A DNA stretch of 31,830 nucleotides from IMG/VR virus record IMGVR_UViG_3300036790_000140, positions 1-31,830 of that record; one strand, given 5' to 3'. The translations under genes were made by a program, and so were the position numbers. The stretch is from a virus. Positions 7,403 through 31,569 of the stretch are shown here, one piece after another. Position 1 is the stretch's first letter; each line of letters starts with the position of its first letter. The notes under the pieces are model-generated. The model ran no database searches. It had not been told where the DNA came from and saw nothing but the letters and a program-made list of their open reading frames with translations.

Positions 7403-8008
7403 TTACTCATTACATTCCATTTGTTCACCGCAAGGGCAAACAGGAAGTCCGACATCAATCCACTTTTGCGAAGTCCGTACCGTGTATCCGCAGGATTCTT
7501 CGGTACAAACCAACTTTCGCATTCGCGTCCCTTGCTTTTTCGGACCGTCACCGCCCTTGCCCGGTAGTAAACTGCGGTGCGGATACTTCGGAAGCGAGCC
7601 CAACCAACCTTTGATCCGCTTTTGTAGTTCAGAAGATGCAACCGTAGCCGTCATCTGGCCTTCGAGTCCGCACGCCACCGCGACATTGCGGAATGCCTTG
7701 CGGTGTCCAGCTTCAATGCCGGCGACGACATGCACTAACTCGTGAATCAGCACGTCAGTTACGCGGTCGGCCTTGTCCAGTTCCGGCGAAATGAAGATTT
7801 CATGGAAGCCATCGGAGGATGCTTTCGCTGACCAGCATTGCCCGATGGCGTGCTGCCCCTTGCCGCCGCGACGGCCGTAAGGGAATCCTACCGACACCCT
7901 GATTTTGTCTGGGAGTTTGTACCCCAGGGGCGTTAGCAGTTCAGCCGACAGGAGAGCCACGGCTTGAACAAGCCAGGACTCGCGCGTCAATGATGTCGAT
8001 GCGGCCAT
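7403..8008 (-). CDS. SprT-like zinc metalloprotease
   Basis: A 201-residue SprT/Spartan-type protein. The active-site helix is VLIHELVHVVAG (HELVH at 89-93), followed by GHRKAF as in SprT-like families. The C-terminal zinc ribbon has Cys 168, 173, 191 and 193 (CTEESCGY and CPCGEQM). Relatives cleave DNA-bound proteins or are linked to transcription, so it may clear protein-DNA crosslinks or act on host proteins. It starts behind GGAG and is the first gene after its own promoter (8033-8070), which matches the two virion promoters, hinting at expression late or together with virion genes. Confidence 0.82.
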   Translation of the reverse strand: MAASTSLTRESWLVQAVALLSAELLTPLGYKLPDKIRVSVGFPYGRRGGKGQHAIGQCWSAKASSDGFHEIFISPELDKADRVTDVLIHELVHVVAGIEAGHRKAFRNVAVACGLEGQMTATVASSELQKRIKGWLGSLPKYPHRSLLPGKGGDGPKKQGTRMRKLVCTEESCGYTVRTSQKWIDVGLPVCPCGEQMECNE

Positions 8009-8032
8009 GAAACTCCAGGATTAGTGCCCTAT

Positions 8033-8070
8033 CTCAATTCTACTGTAACCCGTACTTTCGGACTCGCCAA
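8033..8070 (-). promoter_or_regulatory. Promoter with phage motif, upstream of the SprT-like gene
   Basis: On the minus strand: TTGGCG (8065-8070), a 17-bp spacer, TACAGT (8042-8047) and then AGAATTGAG (8033-8041). The last nine bases are identical to those at the two rightward virion promoters. Predicted transcription start lies near 8034, 25 bases before the gene. Confidence 0.65.
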
Positions 8071-8071
8071 A

Positions 8072-9469
8072 TCAGCCCATTGCTTTTTCGGCGATCTTCC
8101 GCAGGGAAGCATCGAAGTTGGCGACAAAGGCGCGGCCGTTGTGCGTCGTTTCCTCTGCCGCCGCGATGGCTTCCATCATCAAGCCAAACACCAGGGCCGG
8201 CTTTTGTCGCGCCAGCGGCGACGATAGCAACCGAAGGAACGGATGATCCAGATTGAAAGCCATTTGATGATCGCGCCGGACCACAACCGGCGATTTCTCA
8301 CCTAGCTTTTCCTGGGGATACCGCTTCGTTCCGCCCTCCCGCTGACTGCCCTTTGGATCAATGATGGATTGCAACTCCTGCAATAGCTTGGGTGACAGCG
8401 GCGTAGAGGGTACGGCGCTTTCACGGTCACGCCGCACCGATGCCAGGATATACTTTTCCGTTTCCTCTTTCAGCCGGGCAATCAGCCGGTCATCAAATTG
8501 CACGTCATCTTTCTTCACACTGACATGGAAAAACTCATCCAGTTCGCGGCTGAATTCCAATTCGGCCCGGAAATGAGCGCCGACATGATGCCGCAAGTTG
8601 CCGCTGATTCCGAACGTTTCAGCGGCCAGCACTTCGCGTCCATTGCGAAGCAAGTAAAAGCCAGCGTGTTTGTCAATCACTGGGATGGGTGCATCCTCGT
8701 CATCCGGCACGTCAACGATTCGCAACTCCGCTGTTTTGCCAGGGGCGAACGTGATTTGTTTTTGCACTACCCGTTCAGTCCGCGGATCGTCCAGCATGAG
8801 CGGATCAATCTTCACTACCTTATGGTTGTTCACGTAAAACTTCGTGCCGTGGTCAATGTACCGCCGATAGATGCGGCCCATCGCCAACATGAGTTTGTCA
8901 CGGAAGCGGCCGGGATGCGTGTCATCAATGCGATCTATCTTGGAAATGCTGACGATTGTGCCGTGTGGCATGATTCGCTCCAGGTCATTGCGTTTGGCAA
9001 TGCCGCTGGCGGCAACCCAGGCACCGCGTTCCCGGACAAGCGACAGGTCAAGTATCACCTCATGGCCTACGCCGCCTTGCTGAATCGAAGCGACTCGCAA
9101 ATTTTCCCCCAGACTGAGGCCAGCGGCCACAAGTCCGACGCCGAAGCGCCCCAGGTCAGTGGGGTTGTAAACCCGCTGTGAGCCAATGCGGATGGCTTCC
9201 TGCAATGTTGCGGCGTCCATCCCGCCGCCGTTGTCGATGATATTCACCACATGCCCGACGTATTTGCTTTCCCGCTGGGTGGCAATGATTTCAACGTCGA
9301 TGCGGGTTGCCCCCGCGTCAAGGCAGTTATCCACTAGGTCGCAAATGGCCGCGATGGAGCGATAGCCTAGCTCTCGAAACGCTTCAAGCGTTCGGGCCGG
9401 GCCGGGCGTAATGTCCACTTCGTTCACGCGGCCAGCGGCCGGTTTAACAATGACGCTTCGCTGTCTCAT
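8072..9469 (-). CDS. GHKL (HSP90/MutL/MORC-type) ATPase
   Basis: A 465-residue protein with an N-terminal HATPase domain: N-box AICDLVDNCLDAG (residues 41-53), G1 box IIDNGGGMD (77-85) and G2 box GRFGVGL (107-113). The N-box residue that is usually the catalytic Glu is Asp (D44), while the Asn for magnesium (N48) is kept. The middle may be an S5-like transducer domain (KFYVNNHKV, then FYLLRNGREVL). The C-terminal third has no recognised nuclease. Such ATPases act as ATP-driven clamps in repair, chromatin or defence systems. GGAAGGAAT precedes the start and it has its own promoter. Function beyond ATP binding is unknown. Confidence 0.82.
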   Translation of the reverse strand: MRQRSVIVKPAAGRVNEVDITPGPARTLEAFRELGYRSIAAICDLVDNCLDAGATRIDVEIIATQRESKYVGHVVNIIDNGGGMDAATLQEAIRIGSQRVYNPTDLGRFGVGLVAAGLSLGENLRVASIQQGGVGHEVILDLSLVRERGAWVAASGIAKRNDLERIMPHGTIVSISKIDRIDDTHPGRFRDKLMLAMGRIYRRYIDHGTKFYVNNHKVVKIDPLMLDDPRTERVVQKQITFAPGKTAELRIVDVPDDEDAPIPVIDKHAGFYLLRNGREVLAAETFGISGNLRHHVGAHFRAELEFSRELDEFFHVSVKKDDVQFDDRLIARLKEETEKYILASVRRDRESAVPSTPLSPKLLQELQSIIDPKGSQREGGTKRYPQEKLGEKSPVVVRRDHQMAFNLDHPFLRLLSSPLARQKPALVFGLMMEAIAAAEETTHNGRAFVANFDASLRKIAEKAMG

Positions 9470-9501
9470 ATTCCTTCCAATCCCTGTAAAACCCGCCGCT
9501 T

Positions 9502-9530
9502 AGAATACCCTATGCTTTGCCGAAAAGCAA
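9502..9530 (-). promoter_or_regulatory. Likely sigma70-type promoter of the GHKL gene
   Basis: Minus strand TTGCTT (9525-9530), 17-bp spacer, TATTCT (9502-9507). The spacer overlaps a small perfect hairpin (CTTTGC / GCAAAG), which could be an operator or the end of the upstream transcript. The gene starts about 33 bases downstream of the -10. Confidence 0.5.
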
Positions 9531-9552
9531 AGGGATTCTCCTACCGATAACC

Positions 9553-9759
9553 TTATTTGGTCGGGGTGCGGCACGCCGCCAACAGTTGCCGACTCAGACT
9601 CACCGCCTCTTGACAGGTCAGTTGCACCGCAATGTAGTGCATATCCTCCCGGTGGAATCGCAATTCCACATGGTTATCCAGACGTGACACGCCATAGAGC
9701 GCCAGGGGATACCATCGACGCGGAAAAACCATTGCCTTTAGTACATTCGACATTCTCAT
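9553..9759 (-). CDS. Hypothetical protein, 68 aa
   Basis: Not recognised. It reads as a small alpha/beta protein: strands around YPLALYGVSRLDNHVELRF, then YIAVQLTCQEAVSLSRQLLAAC as a closing helix. AGGAG seven bases upstream supports ATG 9759 over the internal ATG two codons later. It lies just downstream of a terminator-like hairpin and follows the repeat-protein gene, so it may belong to the amidoligase block. Confidence 0.6.
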   Translation of the reverse strand: MRMSNVLKAMVFPRRWYPLALYGVSRLDNHVELRFHREDMHYIAVQLTCQEAVSLSRQLLAACRTPTK

Positions 9760-9774
9760 TTTCTTCTCCTGTGT

Positions 9775-9804
9775 TAAGAGCGAAAGGCCGGATGCGAACC
9801 GGCC
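9775..9804 (-). terminator. Terminator-like hairpin after the repeat-protein gene
   Basis: Minus-strand hairpin GGCCGG - 7-nt loop - CCGGCC (9786-9804) followed by TTTCGCTCTT. It starts 13 bases after the stop codon. The T-run is imperfect, so partial termination is more likely than full. Layout and flanks resemble the hairpin at 10472-10501. Confidence 0.5.
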
Positions 9805-9816
9805 AGGGTCACGCGG

Positions 9817-10452
9817 TTATTTCGCTGACTTGACACGACGATCAGTGACGATTTTGGCCGAGCCACCCACATCCTTGATGGTGGCCGAGCCACCCACATC
9901 CTTGATGGTGGCCGAGCCACCCACATAATTGATGGTGGCCGAGTCACGCACATAATTGATGGTGGCCGAGCCACCCACATCCTTGATGGTGGCCGAGCCA
10001 CCCACATCCTTGATGGTGGCCGAGCCACCCACATCCTTGATGGTGGCCGAGTCACGCACATAATTGATGGTGGCCGAGTCACGCACACTGAGGATTCGAC
10101 CCGCTTTGATTTCGTTCACTACCGCTTTACCGCCGAGGATGTAACACCCATCGACGATTAAATCCCGCGTCTCATCGACGATGAGCATTGACTTGGCAAT
10201 CGCCCGTAACTTTTTCTCCGCTTGCGACTCCACATCATCCAGCCATGCCGGGCGAGTATTTTCGTCAATTCGCCAATTCCATTTCGACACGTCCAGCCAG
10301 TTATCGCCGGGCGTCAATTCGACTTTGGCAAACTTCCCAACTTTCGTATCCTTCAAGTCGAACAACCGCACTAATTCAGAGTGCGAATCGACCATAGGGT
10401 GCCACAACACATCACCTTTCGGTGTGATGATTGCGGATAGAAAATTACACAT
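9817..10452 (-). CDS. Protein with nine 9-residue beta-solenoid-like repeats
   Basis: A 211-residue protein. The N-terminal domain (1-120) begins MCNFLSAIITPKGDVLWHP and ends with DLIVDGCYILGGKAVV. The C-terminal part is nine 9-residue repeats of the type V-[GR]-[GD]-S-A-T-I-[KN]-[DY], which would stack as a beta-solenoid rod. The Ser-Ala-Thr-Ile core repeats every turn. Similar proteins of unknown function, with a conserved MCNFLSA-like start and variable repeat number, exist in phages and bacteria (from memory, not checked). An excellent GGAGG precedes the start. It sits directly downstream of the glutamine amidotransferase gene and, like it, starts Met-Cys. A substrate, scaffold or surface role is inference. 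Confidence 0.75.
   Translation of the reverse strand: MCNFLSAIITPKGDVLWHPMVDSHSELVRLFDLKDTKVGKFAKVELTPGDNWLDVSKWNWRIDENTRPAWLDDVESQAEKKLRAIAKSMLIVDETRDLIVDGCYILGGKAVVNEIKAGRILSVRDSATINYVRDSATIKDVGGSATIKDVGGSATIKDVGGSATINYVRDSATINYVGGSATIKDVGGSATIKDVGGSAKIVTDRRVKSAK
9850..10092. repeat. 27-bp tandem repeat array, nine units
   Basis: Nine head-to-tail 27-bp units inside the repeat-protein gene. Two sequence types alternate. Type A has agccaccc...atcctt (encodes GG...IKD) and type B has agtcacgc...ataatt (encodes RD...INY). Reading left to right, unit 1 is a degenerate A, units 2, 5, 6 and 7 are A, units 4 and 8 are B, unit 3 is a hybrid of A and B, and unit 9 is B with a changed end. Copies of one type are identical over 27 bases, so unequal recombination or slippage has acted recently. 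Unit length is in frame, so copy number can change without breaking the gene. Confidence 0.95.
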
Positions 10453-10471
10453 TGGAAACCTCCGTTAAGGG

Positions 10472-10501
10472 TAAAAGCAAAACCGGGGCGCGACTCCCGG
10501 T
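10472..10501 (-). terminator. Intrinsic terminator after the glutamine amidotransferase gene
   Basis: Minus-strand hairpin ACCGGG - 8-nt loop - CCCGGT (10482-10501) followed by TTTGCTTTT. It lies 8 bases after the TAG of the amidotransferase gene and before the ribosome site of the next gene, so it would reduce transcription into the repeat-protein gene. Confidence 0.6.
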
Positions 10502-10508
10502 GGTCACG

Positions 10509-11285
10509 CTATTTGCGGGACGCTTCGCCCATCGCCTCTAGGATGGCATTCATTTCGTTCACGTCATCGCGGGCAATCGCATCGTCAAGTGTGGCGTCAA
10601 GATAGTGCTCTTGCCACTCCGCTTCCGATAGTTTGTCAGGATCGGAGAACAGAGTGCCGCGGAAAGTGCTTCCTTCGCAATCGCCGCCTGACCAGCGGTT
10701 CATAGAGGCACAACCGCGATAGCGAAAGGGGATATCCTTATAGCCGCTGTTACTGAACCACCGCGAGCCATCCCACACGCCGCTATCGGCATTGACAATA
10801 GACACGTTGCCGCACTCGTCCATGAGGATAAACTTATTCGCCGGCCCGATCATTTCGGCCAGCTCGCCGCCGAATACGCCGCTTGTCAATTGTGCGGGTT
10901 CGCGGCACGCTAGGATGGTCCGACAGAAGAATGCAGTGTCGCTTAGGTCACTTGTCGCCGGTGGTTCAATGTCCAGTATGCCATTGTGCACTAAACCTGC
11001 CCGGCCGTCCCCCAGGATATGCGGATGGATATTCACGGTCGAATTGTCGCCATGAGTCGCGTAGCGAAAGTGCACAACGAAATGCGATGTTGCACCGAAC
11101 GCCGCATGATCTTTATAGTACGCCTTGCGAAGCCGCTTGAGACTGTAGAACGGTTTGCGGATAACTAGCTTGCCATCCGCCGCGAACATATAGCCCGCCC
11201 CGTCCGGGTTTGCCGTCCATCCGTTTTTCAGGATATCACGGTCTAACGCCGCATCCCCTTTAGGTTGAAACACCGCTAAGCACAT
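10509..11285 (-). CDS. Class II glutamine amidotransferase-like protein
   Basis: A 258-residue Ntn-hydrolase. It starts MCLAVF, so removal of Met would expose the catalytic Cys. Family signatures follow: NPDGAGYMF (26-34), HFRYATHG (72-79, the substrate-binding Arg) and LVHNGIL (98-104). These domains release ammonia from glutamine, or in some relatives cut gamma-glutamyl bonds. No synthase domain is fused, so a partner must use the ammonia or isopeptide; the amidoligase gene two places upstream is the obvious candidate. GAGGAG lies seven bases before the ATG. The C-terminal 100 residues (RWFSNSGYKD onward) are specific to this protein type and end in an acidic helix. Confidence 0.87.
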   Translation of the reverse strand: MCLAVFQPKGDAALDRDILKNGWTANPDGAGYMFAADGKLVIRKPFYSLKRLRKAYYKDHAAFGATSHFVVHFRYATHGDNSTVNIHPHILGDGRAGLVHNGILDIEPPATSDLSDTAFFCRTILACREPAQLTSGVFGGELAEMIGPANKFILMDECGNVSIVNADSGVWDGSRWFSNSGYKDIPFRYRGCASMNRWSGGDCEGSTFRGTLFSDPDKLSEAEWQEHYLDATLDDAIARDDVNEMNAILEAMGEASRK

Positions 11286-11327
11286 TGCAATCTCCTCATT
11301 AGTTAAGAACGCGTCGCACTGATTACA

Positions 11328-11354
11328 CTTGCCCCCGTTCCAAGCGGGGGCAAG
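11328..11354. other. Perfect 10-bp stem-loop between two genes
   Basis: CTTGCCCCCG - TTCCAAG - CGGGGGCAAG. The stem is perfect and GC-rich, but no T-run follows on either strand, so it is not a classical terminator. It lies three bases after the stop of the 67-residue HTH-like gene and 43 bases before the amidotransferase start. RNA stability or transcript processing is possible. Confidence 0.7.
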
Positions 11355-11356
11355 AA

Positions 11357-11560
11357 TTATGAGTGCATCGAATTGACGTAACCATCCTCATTGACGGTAC
11401 GCCCCAGACTTGCCAGAACGGTTGTCACTTGATGGTTCGGGATATCCAAGTGCTTCGCAATCGTGCGGTAGTCCCGCCGGCGGTACTTCCGATTTTGCAA
11501 CAGACTGCGGGTTGCCATCCGCAAAAGTTTTTCATACTGCCGTTCTTCAATGGACAACAT
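11357..11560 (-). CDS. Putative small HTH protein, 67 aa
   Basis: Begins MLSIEERQYEKLLRMATRSL. The segment RRDYRTIAKHLDIPNHQVTTVLASLGRT reads as a helix-turn-helix. The ATG at 11560 is preferred because GAGG lies five bases upstream; earlier in-frame ATGs at 11605-11611 would overlap the amidoligase end. Placed between amidoligase and amidotransferase genes, it could be the local regulator of the block. Confidence 0.6.
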   Translation of the reverse strand: MLSIEERQYEKLLRMATRSLLQNRKYRRRDYRTIAKHLDIPNHQVTTVLASLGRTVNEDGYVNSMHS

Positions 11561-11597
11561 ACAAACCTCATTTCTGTGGCCGATGGCCACTGTAAAA

Positions 11598-12926
11598 TTA
11601 GTCATGGTCAATCTCTGTCGGATTCCCGATCCATTTCAGCAAATCATGCGACTCGGGACGGCCGATCAAATTTGCCCCCTCTACTTTCATCCACCGGCGG
11701 AAATTCCCCAGCGTCATTTGACCGATGCCATTTCGCTTGACGAATTGAACCAAAGCCGCCACTAACGCGATATTCCGCTTGATGGATTGAACGTCAAGCG
11801 TGCCGCGAAAGATACGGAATTCGATGGTACGGGGATTCTCTAGATTGATTGCCGTATACCGATCGTCATGGCTATTGCCTGATTTCACTTTTTTGCACAA
11901 TCCCCCAGTGCCTTGACCGTCGATTTTCGACCAACGATTGAGCGTATCCCCCTTGCGGCGTGACATACGCTTGATGAATGCCGCATTGTCACGGAAGAAT
12001 GCCAGTAGCTTGAGAATGTCCAACCGCGATAGGCTGGAACGTCCAACGTGAATGTGCATTCCACACGTTGAAGTATCGTATGAACGATACCCCATTTTCT
12101 TTAGCTTCGCGGCCCAACCAAAATCGGCGTGCTGTTTCCAGTATTCCCATGTTGCGGGATGCGAAACGATTTCAAAACCGCTATCTAAGCTGCCATCCTC
12201 TTTGCAGTAGTACAAATCGTGCTCATGCAACCCGGCCGATTCAACGTTGTCCGACTCACAACCTCCCTCATCGACTTCCAATTCAATGCCGAAGAATGTT
12301 GTGATACTTCTACTTCGCACTGGCTCATTCGACGCCCGGAAGAATTCCGCTTCCGGTTTATAGCCGTAGTTGCGAATGGCTCTTGGCTCATCTTCCTCAT
12401 CCGCTTCCTCATCCGCCGCATCGTCATGGCATGATCGGCAAAGCGTATTCCCCGCATCGTCCAAATATGCATCGTCATTGGCGATAACGTCATTACAGTT
12501 TTCACACGTTGAATAGTTATCAACGCAACTCTCGCAAATGCGTTCGCCGGCCGCATTGTCATAATGGGCGGAATCCGTAGCAAAATGGTCATTGCAATCC
12601 GCACATTCCCATGAGCAATCATCGCATCGTGTTTCCGTGAATGAACGGGATGTATAATGCGAACGAATCGTAGTAGTGTGGAATTCATCCCCATCGGTTG
12701 TTGTCCGGCCGCAATGTTCGCACTCAATCACGCAATCGCGGCAGTGCGGAATATCGTCATGCAAAACCGTTTCATCCGCATCGGTGGACGTGTGACAGTG
12801 GGGGCATACGATTTGCCCCGATTGGTCTGATTCAACCTCTAGCGGTGCGGGATGCAATCGTTCAGCAATCGCCGGTAAGTCGCGTGCTGAATCAATGAAC
12901 GGTAACGGAATTTGAATATCAGGCAT
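11598..12926 (-). CDS. Amidoligase (glutamine-synthetase fold) with N-terminal zinc-finger array
   Basis: A 442-residue protein in two parts. The N-terminal part has eight CxxC pairs (41-44, 62-65, 69-72, 101-104, 108-111, 131-134, 141-144, 163-166), enough for four zinc sites of LIM/treble-clef type. An acidic linker (170-181) follows. The C-terminal part matches the putative amidoligase family: FFGIELEVDEGG (211-222), SLDSGFEIVSHP (246-257), CGMHIHVG (288-295) and TIEFRIFRG (367-375). These have the metal- and ATP-binding acids, His and Arg of glutamine synthetase-like COOH-NH2 ligases. Such enzymes form amide or isopeptide bonds, and phage versions are reported next to class II amidotransferases (Iyer, Aravind and colleagues). 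The substrate is unknown; the zinc array may bind it. Confidence 0.87.
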   Translation of the reverse strand: MPDIQIPLPFIDSARDLPAIAERLHPAPLEVESDQSGQIVCPHCHTSTDADETVLHDDIPHCRDCVIECEHCGRTTTDGDEFHTTTIRSHYTSRSFTETRCDDCSWECADCNDHFATDSAHYDNAAGERICESCVDNYSTCENCNDVIANDDAYLDDAGNTLCRSCHDDAADEEADEEDEPRAIRNYGYKPEAEFFRASNEPVRSRSITTFFGIELEVDEGGCESDNVESAGLHEHDLYYCKEDGSLDSGFEIVSHPATWEYWKQHADFGWAAKLKKMGYRSYDTSTCGMHIHVGRSSLSRLDILKLLAFFRDNAAFIKRMSRRKGDTLNRWSKIDGQGTGGLCKKVKSGNSHDDRYTAINLENPRTIEFRIFRGTLDVQSIKRNIALVAALVQFVKRNGIGQMTLGNFRRWMKVEGANLIGRPESHDLLKWIGNPTEIDHD

Positions 12927-27920: not shown

Positions 27921-29755
27921 GCACCGGCGTTTCATTATCCCTCACGGCAACCACCGGCCCGCAGTATGTCACGCCCGTTATCGCGGCGTGCAATGGTTTC
28001 GTTTACATCGGTCAGCCGATCGGCGACACCATTGGCGAAGCCGGCAATCAGGGATCGGCCCCGCTCGTCAGCAATCTGCCGGTGTCCATGTGCTTCCTCA
28101 ACCTGACGATCTTCATGGTGGACGGCACGCACATTGTCACGCTGCCCCTGGCGACGGGGAACGTGACGCCCTACACCAACAGCCAGAGCGCGACACTGGT
28201 ATCTACCGGCAGCACATCGCCCTTCCTCGCCACCGCGACCGTGGACAACACGGATATCTATACCAGCGGCCAAACAATCCTGATCTCCGGTGCAGACCAG
28301 ACCGCCTACAACGGCGAATTTGAAATCACTGTCACCTCACCGACGACGTTCACCTACGAGATCATCGCCGTCAGCGCCCCGACGACACCCGCCACCGGCA
28401 CCATCACGGTCGGCAATATCCTGGGGACCGCCCCCACCAACTGTTCTCTCTGTTGCAACTGGCGCGGACGATTGGTACTGGCCGGCGACTCGGGCAATCC
28501 ACAAAACTTCTACATGGCTCGCGTCGGCACGCCAACCGATTGGGATTACTCGCAGACCGATCCCGCGGCGGCGGTGGCCGGCAACCTCTCGACCAGCGGC
28601 CAGATCGGGGCGGCGATCATCGCGTTGATTCCGTACACCGATGACTACATGCTGATCCAGACCGCGGATTCCATGTGGATGCTCGAAGGCGATCCGGCGG
28701 ACGGCGGAACGATCGTTCGCGTGGCTCAGAACATGGGCGGCATCGGGCCAAACGCCTGGACCCAGGACGCCAGCGCGATTCTGTACTTCATCGCCCAGGG
28801 CGGCATGTATCAACTTCGCCCGGTCTGGGAAATGTTCCAACCGCCGCAGTTGATGACGGGCGGGAACTACGATCAATATTTCCAGGGCCTCAACTACTCC
28901 GATCAGATTTCGATGGTGTTTGATCCTGACAAGCACTACATCTATTTCTTCGACACCCCCGGCGACGGCACCACGGCCGGCACGCATCTGGTTCACGACA
29001 TGCGAAACGGCGGACTCTGGCCCCAGCAGTTCCCGGCCAACATCGGACCGACCGTGACGCTCGCGTACAACCCCACCGGCAGCGGTGTGGATCGTGTGAT
29101 TGTTCTCGGTGGACAGGATGGCTATCTCCGTAAGCTGGACCCCTCCGCTCTCGATGATGACGGCACCGCCATCGACGCCAGCATTGTGCTTGGGCCGTTC
29201 CATCCGACGCCGGAAGCCAGTCTGCTCGGCGCTGTGACGATTGATATGGGCGAAGTGCCCAGCGCCCTGGCCGGGTCCGCTCCGGTGCAGGTGACAGGGG
29301 AAACGCCCAGCGGGACCATCGACGGCAGCAATGCAACGTTCACGCTGGCCGAAACGCCGATCGAGGATACGCAGGAAATTTTCCTGGATGGCACGCGGCT
29401 GGACTCCGTGGATGATTATGTCCTGACCGCCAACTCCCTGGAATTGAATGATGCCCCGGCCGCAGGGTCCACGCTGCTGGCCAACTACCAGTATCTCGGC
29501 GATCCGGCGAACCCCTGGAACGCGGTCGCTTCGATGTTTGCTGGGCCGGATGCGTACTCGGTCACGGAGGGACTGGCCCACAATCAGGCGGTCATTTCCA
29601 TGACGCTGGAGCGCCGGCAGAAAACCATGCGGCAGCGGATGCGGGGCGGCTGGTTCAGCCTGATGATCGCCAACGATCAACTCGATACATTCTTCAGTTT
29701 TGAATCGGCCACGCTGGAATTCATGCCGGCCGGGCGTAACCGGGAGCGGCGATAA
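27917..29755 (+). CDS. Tail nozzle/stabilisation-like beta-propeller protein
   Basis: A 612-residue protein, coupled to the upstream gene (ATGA). Residues 91-166 are an FCCH-like beta domain shared with the adaptor. Residues ~175-420 are propeller blades (CNWRGRLVLAGDSGNPQNFYMA, ALIPYTDDYMLIQTADSMWMLEGDP, YIYFFDTPGD) as in tail tubular B/stabilisation proteins that close the tail tip and guide DNA out. Residues ~455-520 hold another strand-rich insert (SNATFTLAETPIEDTQEIFLDG). The end (RRQKTMRQRMRGGWFSLMIAN) is basic. Confidence 0.75.
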   Translation: MSTGVSLSLTATTGPQYVTPVIAACNGFVYIGQPIGDTIGEAGNQGSAPLVSNLPVSMCFLNLTIFMVDGTHIVTLPLATGNVTPYTNSQSATLVSTGSTSPFLATATVDNTDIYTSGQTILISGADQTAYNGEFEITVTSPTTFTYEIIAVSAPTTPATGTITVGNILGTAPTNCSLCCNWRGRLVLAGDSGNPQNFYMARVGTPTDWDYSQTDPAAAVAGNLSTSGQIGAAIIALIPYTDDYMLIQTADSMWMLEGDPADGGTIVRVAQNMGGIGPNAWTQDASAILYFIAQGGMYQLRPVWEMFQPPQLMTGGNYDQYFQGLNYSDQISMVFDPDKHYIYFFDTPGDGTTAGTHLVHDMRNGGLWPQQFPANIGPTVTLAYNPTGSGVDRVIVLGGQDGYLRKLDPSALDDDGTAIDASIVLGPFHPTPEASLLGAVTIDMGEVPSALAGSAPVQVTGETPSGTIDGSNATFTLAETPIEDTQEIFLDGTRLDSVDDYVLTANSLELNDAPAAGSTLLANYQYLGDPANPWNAVASMFAGPDAYSVTEGLAHNQAVISMTLERRQKTMRQRMRGGWFSLMIANDQLDTFFSFESATLEFMPAGRNRERR

Positions 29756-31569
29756 TGCCCACAGTCAAACCCGGTAACTCCAACCCACTCGACAGCAACG
29801 CCAGCAATCCAAACCGGATGCGGCGTAACTTCCAACGCTTGAAGCGGGGCGGCGTCACTCCACTGATTACTTTGCAGCCGGATTCCGGTTTGGAAATCAC
29901 CGCGGACGGCTTGGCCATCGAAGTGGCGGATACATCCCTGGTGAAATCCGCCGCCGGCGTCGGCGTGAATTTGGAAACGGCCTCGGGCCTGACGATCAAT
30001 AACGGCGTCGGTGTTTTGCTGGCGGATCATTCGCTGCAAACTTCGACGGCCGGTTTGTCGGTGCAGGAAGCGCCGGCGGGCAGCATTCAAACCACGACGA
30101 TGGGCATTGGCCTTCGCGTGGCGGATGCCAGTCTGACTTCGACCACCATGGGCCTCGCGGTCCAGAACAAACCTAACGGCGGCATTCAGACTTCCACCAC
30201 CGGGATCGGCGTGTTGCTGGCGGATACGAGTTTGCAAACGTCCACCGCGGGCCTCTCGGTCAGCCTGAGTGCGACGGGCGCGCTGGCCACCTCGGGCGGT
30301 CTGGGCGTCAAGGTTGATGGCACCACGATCAAGATTACGGGTGATGTGCTGGTGGCAACTGCCAGTGGCAGTGGCACGGTGACGGATGTGGGACTGGCGG
30401 TTCCGACTTCGGTGTTGTCCATCACCGGCAGCCCGATTACGACCAGCGGGACCATGACGATTGGATTGCAGAACCAGAACATCAACACGGTGTTCGCGGG
30501 TCCGGCAACGGGGTCGGCCGGCACGCCAGCCTTCCGAGCGCTCGTGGCGGCGGACATCCCGGCGCTCTCCTACGTTTCGTCCGTGGCGATTGCGGTCCCC
30601 TCGATCTTCTCGATCAGTGGTTCGCCGGTGACGAGCACGGGCACCATGACGATCGGCCTTCAGAATGCAAGCGCTAATACCGTTCTCGCCGGCCCGACTT
30701 CGGGGGTGGCGACCACCCCAACCTTTCGCGCGCTGACCGCGACTGATATTCCGGCGCTGTCCTATGTTACGTCGGTAGCACTTTCGATGCCGGCGGAATT
30801 CTCTGTCGCCAACAGTCCAGTGACATCGACTGGAACGCTCACGGTGACGAAGGCGACTCAGACTGCTAACACGATCTACGCCGGCCCCAGTTCCGGGTCG
30901 GCCGCAGCGCCGACATTCCGGGCCATCACGGGCGCGGATATCGCGTCGGCCACCTTGCCGGTTGTCACCGCTGATCCGTCGTCTCCCTCGGCCGGAATGG
31001 CGTGGTATAATTCCACCACGCTCACGCCCACGCTCTGCGCGGCCAACGACGGCACCAATATCGCGGACGGCCCGATCCCCCTTACTGTATTGTATAGTGC
31101 CCAGCAGAATCAGGTGACGGGAAACACCTCGCCTCAGACGTTACCCAATAGCAGCTTCACTTTCCCCTCGGGTTATCTTAATAAGGCCAATCGCACCCTG
31201 GAATTCTATGGCGTGTTCGCCACGGGAACGTCCGGGGCATCGGCCTCGTTCACCATCAATTTCACCTTGGGCGGGCAGACGTTCCAGCTATACGCCAGCC
31301 CCGTGCTGGCTTCGGCCGGCGGTGATACTCTGATTGTCCAGGGCATCATCGGCATTCGTACAACGGGATCGAGCGGGACATTGTACTACGGCGTGACAGT
31401 GATTGGGTCCAATACTTCGACAGGCGGCTTCACCAACTTTTCTGCGGCGAGCGGGTCGAGCCTTAACTGGACGGGAACGGTCGCCTTCAGCCTCACCGCT
31501 TCATCCTCGGTCACGAATACGTCGAACGTGGTTCAAACCCGTGTGTTCAGTCTAAAAGTGATTTCATAG
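29755..31569 (+). CDS. Tail fibre protein with two families of internal repeats
   Basis: A 604-residue protein. A short N-terminal anchor has NPNRMRRNFQRLKRGG. Residues ~45-200 carry repeats of the type TSTTGIGVLLADTSLQTSTAGLSV, a triple-stranded beta-fibre pattern. Residues ~243-395 hold three 64-residue repeats with N-T-[VI]-[FLY]-AGP-x-[ST]-G and FRALTATDIPALSYV; their Asn codons lie at 30484, 30676 and 30868. The C-terminal 140 residues form a probable receptor-binding head (YLNKANRTLEFYGVFATGTS). Trimeric fibres bind the host surface. It starts as TAATG directly after the nozzle gene. Confidence 0.82.
   Translation: MPTVKPGNSNPLDSNASNPNRMRRNFQRLKRGGVTPLITLQPDSGLEITADGLAIEVADTSLVKSAAGVGVNLETASGLTINNGVGVLLADHSLQTSTAGLSVQEAPAGSIQTTTMGIGLRVADASLTSTTMGLAVQNKPNGGIQTSTTGIGVLLADTSLQTSTAGLSVSLSATGALATSGGLGVKVDGTTIKITGDVLVATASGSGTVTDVGLAVPTSVLSITGSPITTSGTMTIGLQNQNINTVFAGPATGSAGTPAFRALVAADIPALSYVSSVAIAVPSIFSISGSPVTSTGTMTIGLQNASANTVLAGPTSGVATTPTFRALTATDIPALSYVTSVALSMPAEFSVANSPVTSTGTLTVTKATQTANTIYAGPSSGSAAAPTFRAITGADIASATLPVVTADPSSPSAGMAWYNSTTLTPTLCAANDGTNIADGPIPLTVLYSAQQNQVTGNTSPQTLPNSSFTFPSGYLNKANRTLEFYGVFATGTSGASASFTINFTLGGQTFQLYASPVLASAGGDTLIVQGIIGIRTTGSSGTLYYGVTVIGSNTSTGGFTNFSAASGSSLNWTGTVAFSLTASSSVTNTSNVVQTRVFSLKVIS

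Follow-up and report, generated by a model that had tools for sequence, protein, structure and literature searches.

A conserved amidoligase-glutamine amidotransferase gene pair in phages, probably a glutamine-dependent amide-forming enzyme, beside a repeat protein that most likely does not belong to it

Introduction

GS-fold ligases use ATP to activate a carboxylate, which is joined to an amine or to ammonia, and glutamine amidotransferases (GATases) of class II release ammonia from glutamine. A phage genome in which genes for both stand in one leftward run, together with a small gene and a gene for a solenoid-repeat protein, raises the question of which of these products work together and what they make. 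The locus lies in a single virus record, IMGVR_UViG_3300036790_000140, whose 31,830 bases form the window, that is, the whole stretch of DNA analysed here. The original prediction treated the run as one block encoding a possible peptide-tagging system, with the repeat protein as its substrate or display rod. The amidoligase-GATase combination has already been published as a phage gene pair (PMC10580990), and cell-wall modification or superinfection exclusion has been proposed for phage amidoligases in PMC10580990, PMC11945000, and PMC11318856, the first of which cites Iyer 2009 for phiEco32. Both the pair and its proposed role in cell-wall or peptide modification are thus on record.

The locus

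The run comprises four genes on the minus strand, in the order amidoligase, small putative wHTH protein, class II GATase, and repeat protein, all found where they had been predicted. The features are as follows.

11598-12926, minus strand: GS-fold amidoligase, 442 aa, with a CxxC array (residues 41-166) and a catalytic domain (about residues 210-410)
12429-12806, minus strand: DNA encoding the CxxC (LIM-like/treble-clef-like) array, residues 41-166, with alternating long and short CxxC spacers
11357-11560, minus strand: small putative winged-HTH protein, 67 aa from the ATG at 11560; the longest ORF extends to 11611
10509-11285, minus strand: class II (Ntn-type) glutamine amidotransferase, 258 aa, assigned by invariant residues and a GlmS profile match
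10482-10501, minus strand: terminator-like hairpin between the GATase and repeat-protein genes, ACCGGGAGTCGCGCCCCGGT then TTTGCTTTTA
9817-10452, minus strand: solenoid-repeat protein, 211 aa, an MCNF head domain followed by 9-aa repeats, judged to lie outside the enzyme unit

Terminator-like sites are no more numerous in the region than chance would give, which makes the hairpin at 10482-10501 weak evidence of a boundary. No RNA element or tRNA was found in the window.

Other genes of the window deserve mention in their own right. A GHKL ATPase (8072-9469, minus strand) resembles MzaB of the MZA anti-phage system, with an NCBIfam MzaB match of E=6e-21 that lies far under the curated cut-off and a PADLOC match of 1.9e-17; a SprT-like protein (7403-8008) adjoins it. 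On the virion side, a protein at 29755-31569 (plus strand) matches the Pfam avian adenovirus fibre N-terminus (E=3.6e-7), which is probably a generic fibre repeat. Neither the amidoligase nor the GATase gave a defence-system match.

The amidoligase and its active site

The amidoligase scores 40.5 bits against Pfam PF12224 (E=3.7e-10), above the curated cut-off of 22, and matches PHROG_16683 at E=2.5e-42. A search with the single protein found no close relatives in viral contigs, while a search with an alignment succeeded. In an 18-sequence alignment of phage amidoligases, residues G213, E215, E217, E252, P257, G289, H291, R324, E369, and R371 are invariant, and D244, S246, H293, and Y357 are nearly so; the window protein has every one of these residues. 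The active-site residues had been named beforehand as one point on which the original prediction could fail; the ExE, DGS, GxHxH, R, and ExR motifs are all retained.

The AlphaFold2 model of the protein is of modest quality (pLDDT 70). Its best Foldseek matches are GmaS, a gamma-glutamylmethylamide synthetase (3e-5), PafA (5e-4), glutamine synthetase (5e-4), and YbdK (3e-3), and the whole-chain TM-scores are low (0.2-0.4). Because of this modest quality and these low scores, the predicted structure supports the fold class alone, namely that of glutamine-synthetase-like ligases. With exactly eight CxxC pairs, the protein is the GS-fold, CxxC-bearing amidoligase that had been predicted.

The amidotransferase and the small gene

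The GATase carries the class II motifs MC, HFRYATHG, HNG, and SDT. It matches PHROG_25883 (E=1.9e-14) and an NCBIfam GlmS-type model (E=2.8e-10, across the GATase part of that model), and reaches 13.7 bits against Pfam GATase_6, below the curated cut-off of 27, a library threshold and not a catalytic feature. A profile of 24 GATase sequences matches the GATase domain of GlmS, 1xff, at E=9.3e-11, as well as solved PurF structures. Judged by its sequence, the window GATase belongs to a divergent subfamily that is still recognised through the alignment profile. Across the 24 sequences, M1-C2, H72, R74, T77, N85, H87, P88, H100, N101, G102, D116, S178, and N179 are invariant; the HNGILDIE motif, invariant in 10 GATase sequences, marks a subset of the family.

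Between the two enzymes lies the small gene, whose longest ORF (11357-11611) starts at a TTG. Translation more likely begins at the ATG at 11560, which has GAGG in front of it, and would then yield the 67-aa product. The gene is present as predicted, but the wHTH nature of its product is only suggested by Pfam PCI/TrmB matches below the cut-off. L040 and L046, the nearest two relatives, have small genes at the same position whose products are weakly similar (18-25% identity); in most other members the ligase and GATase genes lie too close together for a gene to fit between them.

The pair is a conserved unit

Loci were recruited separately with each protein, yielding 26 IMG/VR loci for the GATase and 79 viral loci (L040-L118) for the amidoligase, with a few contigs common to the two sets. 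A GATase adjoins the amidoligase in 75 of the 79 amidoligase-recruited loci, which are the best-scoring ones, so that amidoligases more distant than these may be linked to it less often; two of the exceptions are cut by a contig end, and the remaining two, L083 and L115, carry an amidoligase without a GATase. From the other side, the amidoligase lies directly upstream in 23 of the 26 GATase-recruited loci, and the other three are short of upstream sequence at a contig edge. L034 and L037 are further amidoligase loci without a GATase. A contig scan with one GATase peptide pattern returned three loci only.

In these loci the ligase comes first, on the same strand, and the two genes mostly overlap or lie a few bases apart; the window likewise has the ligase first on the same strand. 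Protein distances among the ligases correlate with those among the GATases (r=0.64 over 52 non-redundant pairs), and none of 2000 permutations gave a correlation as high. The amidoligase followed by the GATase is therefore a conserved same-strand two-gene unit, co-inherited and linked far beyond coincidence, as the pairing of an amidoligase with a class II amidotransferase in the original prediction had led one to expect.

Nothing else joins this unit with comparable regularity. No fusion of amidoligase and GATase domains was found, nor a third gene comparably conserved near the pair. Genes for a terminase, a WhiB-like protein, and a phosphoesterase do recur nearby, in no more than 14 of the 59 amidoligase groups, and seem tied to particular lineages. 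Among the known phages that carry the pair are the Marvin-cluster mycobacteriophages, MEP401/402, MW202733, AciJM_313, and StenR_269. The pair is common in phages of very different hosts, including mycobacteria, Methylophilales, Acinetobacter, Stenotrophomonas, and gut bacteria.

Variations on the gene content were also observed. Some phages have two amidoligase genes and one GATase gene (L007, at 7817-9998, L068, L086, L097, and L066). In StenR_269 (L032), two amidoligase-like and two GATase-like genes stand in one 8-kb run with genes annotated as GGCT-, ATP-grasp-, and GS-like, a rich version of the amidoligase-GATase module.

The repeat protein is most likely a chance neighbour

The repeat protein is what it had been taken for. 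A 27-bp tandem repeat at 9855-10087 (8.6 copies, 94% matches) stands well above chance. The protein opens with a head domain of roughly 115 residues, the first of them MCNF, and AlphaFold2 models the 9-residue repeats behind it as strands in regular succession (pLDDT 82-89 in the repeats), a predicted beta-solenoid. The head domain itself has no Pfam match above the cut-off. Both the head and the GATase start with MC, and the possibility that the head is a degenerate GATase was rejected by a negative profile comparison (probability 0.2%).

The part proposed for it alongside the ligase, be it as substrate, scaffold, or display rod, did not survive comparison of the loci, and we regard it as very improbable. 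It draws on same-strand adjacency in one window only, and a terminator-like hairpin stands between the GATase and repeat-protein genes. The head domain was not found in any of the 49 amidoligase-bearing records, many of them fragments, whereas the search did pick up both control records. Conversely, neither an amidoligase nor a GATase occurs in any of the 32 loci recruited with the head domain, whose flanks extend up to 6 kb per side and are often shorter owing to contig ends. The repeat protein's nearest relative shares about 70% identity with it and comes from a record of 45 kb (L039) that contains neither enzyme; Dulem virus 35, whose genome is complete and circular, carries a repeat protein and no GATase. 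Because no co-occurrence was found in either direction, the adjacency in the window is best read as coincidence, and the repeat protein is most likely a chance neighbour unrelated to the enzyme pair. Of the three large genes expected to travel together, only the ligase and the GATase do so; likewise, the four genes do form one leftward run, but not one functional block. Setting the repeat protein aside removes a distraction from the hypothesis.

The phage family with an MCNF or MCRF head (L124-L155 and L033) is of separate interest. Its 9-residue solenoid unit varies among the phages (SATIKDVGG, SQVGKMWGS, GGTLTAMCG, STVQRMYDS, and a pentapeptide-like unit in L127), many of its contigs end inside the repeat array, and another domain replaces the solenoid in L136, L140, L143, L145, L148, L150, and L151.

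The zinc array of the ligase

The eight CxxC pairs of the window amidoligase start at residues 41, 62, 69, 101, 108, 131, 141, and 163, and are separated by spacers of 17, 3, 28, 3, 19, 6, and 18 residues. The same alternation of long and short spacers is found in the relatives L040, L015, L012, and L041; generally, long spacers of about 17-20 residues (27-28 in some) alternate with short ones of 3-9. This spacing resembles tandem double zinc fingers, and matches to LIM models are weak and sub-threshold (E about 0.1).

The original prediction had named the array fused to the ligase and the adjacent repeat protein as features not seen described together. CxxC pairs were counted in the 65 amidoligase clusters whose N-terminal region is long enough: four or more occur in 50 clusters and six or more in 41, with a maximum of 13, and eight clusters have no pair or a single one. 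To judge from these sequences, a zinc array is the norm of the phage amidoligase family and not a peculiarity of the window phage; no description of it was found in the open-licence literature. The Cys-poor amidoligases (L004, L005, and their relatives) have an N-terminal stretch of much the same length that lines up with the array in the 18-sequence alignment but lacks its cysteines, which suggests that the array domain can lose its zinc and that this group is apparently a zinc-free derivative. Amidoligases with an N-terminal region of similar length and few or no CxxC pairs comprise L004, L005, and L049-L060, with exceptions within that range such as L054.

Proposed function and alternatives

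Because the GATase and the ligase are so tightly paired, a glutamine-dependent amidating enzyme is the simplest reading. We consider it probable, if well short of certain, that the two proteins are halves of one glutamine- and ATP-dependent amide-forming enzyme, with a peptidoglycan precursor carboxylate as the leading guess for its substrate and with the repeat protein unrelated. We infer that the GATase, with the N-terminal Cys2 as nucleophile, would hydrolyse glutamine and channel the ammonia to the ligase, that the GS-fold ligase would use ATP to activate a carboxylate as an acyl phosphate, and that attack by the ammonia would then yield the amide. The carboxylate may be that of iso-Glu or diaminopimelate, and amidation of the wall would change the action of the wall-cutting enzymes or receptor-binding proteins of competing phages. 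Nothing in the content of the window points to peptidoglycan specifically. On the host side, AsnB1 (an amidotransferase) and AsnH (an asparagine synthase) amidate peptidoglycan diaminopimelate and D-Asp and, together with MurT/GatD, provide precedents for amidating wall carboxylates (PMC4155827). No measured activity of a phage amidoligase-GATase pair was found in the portions of the literature consulted.

The peptide-tagging idea goes further than the evidence, since the GATase partner points first to ammonia supply, that is, to amidation, and no tag peptide was found; nor is there a candidate for a Pup-like tag, as the C-termini encoded by the block's small ORFs are ...HS and ...TK, not Glu or Gln. 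A related alternative is a peptide or isopeptide ligase with editing. The ligase would then attach a peptide or a single amino acid to a carboxylate on a protein or on a stem peptide, and the Ntn-type GATase, instead of supplying ammonia, would act as an amidohydrolase that trims or reverses the product. GS-fold relatives do include the peptide-bond makers PafA and YbdK, and richer phage modules (amidoligase, ATP-grasp, COOH-NH2 ligase, and GGCT) suggest the building of unusual peptide linkages. However, no ATP-grasp or GGCT family match was found among the window proteins scanned. The glutaminase motifs of the GATase are preserved, the oxyanion motif HNG among them, and its profile matches the glutaminase domain of GlmS best. 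We hold this alternative to be unlikely. Quite unlikely, in our estimate, is an auxiliary metabolic role, in which the pair would make a small amidated metabolite or raise host nitrogen assimilation, as proposed for Phage-ZRK32; similar genes are read as nitrogen-metabolism AMGs in PMC10945688. Against such a role, an enzyme acting on small molecules would not be expected to carry the family-typical zinc array, which hints at a target that is macromolecular or scaffolded, and no other metabolic gene is conserved beside the pair.

Returning to the amide-forming enzyme, the zinc array most likely docks a substrate or partner. A bolder extension, which we think less likely than not, is that the pair represents a two-subunit amidating enzyme, glutamine-dependent and widespread in phages, in which the ligase is steered by a LIM-like tandem zinc-finger array to one specific macromolecular target, and that array length, and even the presence of the cysteines, vary among phages because the docking partner varies. 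Amidation directed in this way at proteins or the cell wall of infected cells would be a class of activity not recognised before. As a tight two-gene unit, with a zinc array in most members and nothing else consistently linked, the locus narrows the problem to one enzyme pair.

Comparison with known systems

The Pup ligase PafA has the same GS-like ligase fold as the window amidoligase. It is not known to have a GATase partner, and, unlike in the PafA system, the small proteins of the window block lack a Pup-like C-terminal Glu or Gln. The ligase folds of MurT/GatD and AsnB1/AsnH, those of a Mur ligase and an asparagine synthetase, differ from that of the window ligase; GatD is not known to belong to class II, and synthases of the AsnB1/AsnH type carry a class II GATase domain. 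In function, these host enzymes combine a ligase with a glutaminase to amidate a carboxylate (PMC4155827), and the window pair would work alike.

The putative peptidoglycan-modification module of LUZ24-like phages and StenR_269 contains an amidoligase and a GATase, as the window does (PMC11945000), but adds a COOH-NH2 ligase, ATP-grasp, and GGCT, none of which was found among the window proteins scanned. Closest in arrangement are the Marvin-cluster mycobacteriophages, the OM43 phages MEP401/402, and MW202733, which share with the window the same two families in the same order, strand, and adjacency. The identity of the window proteins to theirs is only about 27-34%, and the window differs from them in the small wHTH-like gene between the enzymes, a feature it has in common with L040 and L046.
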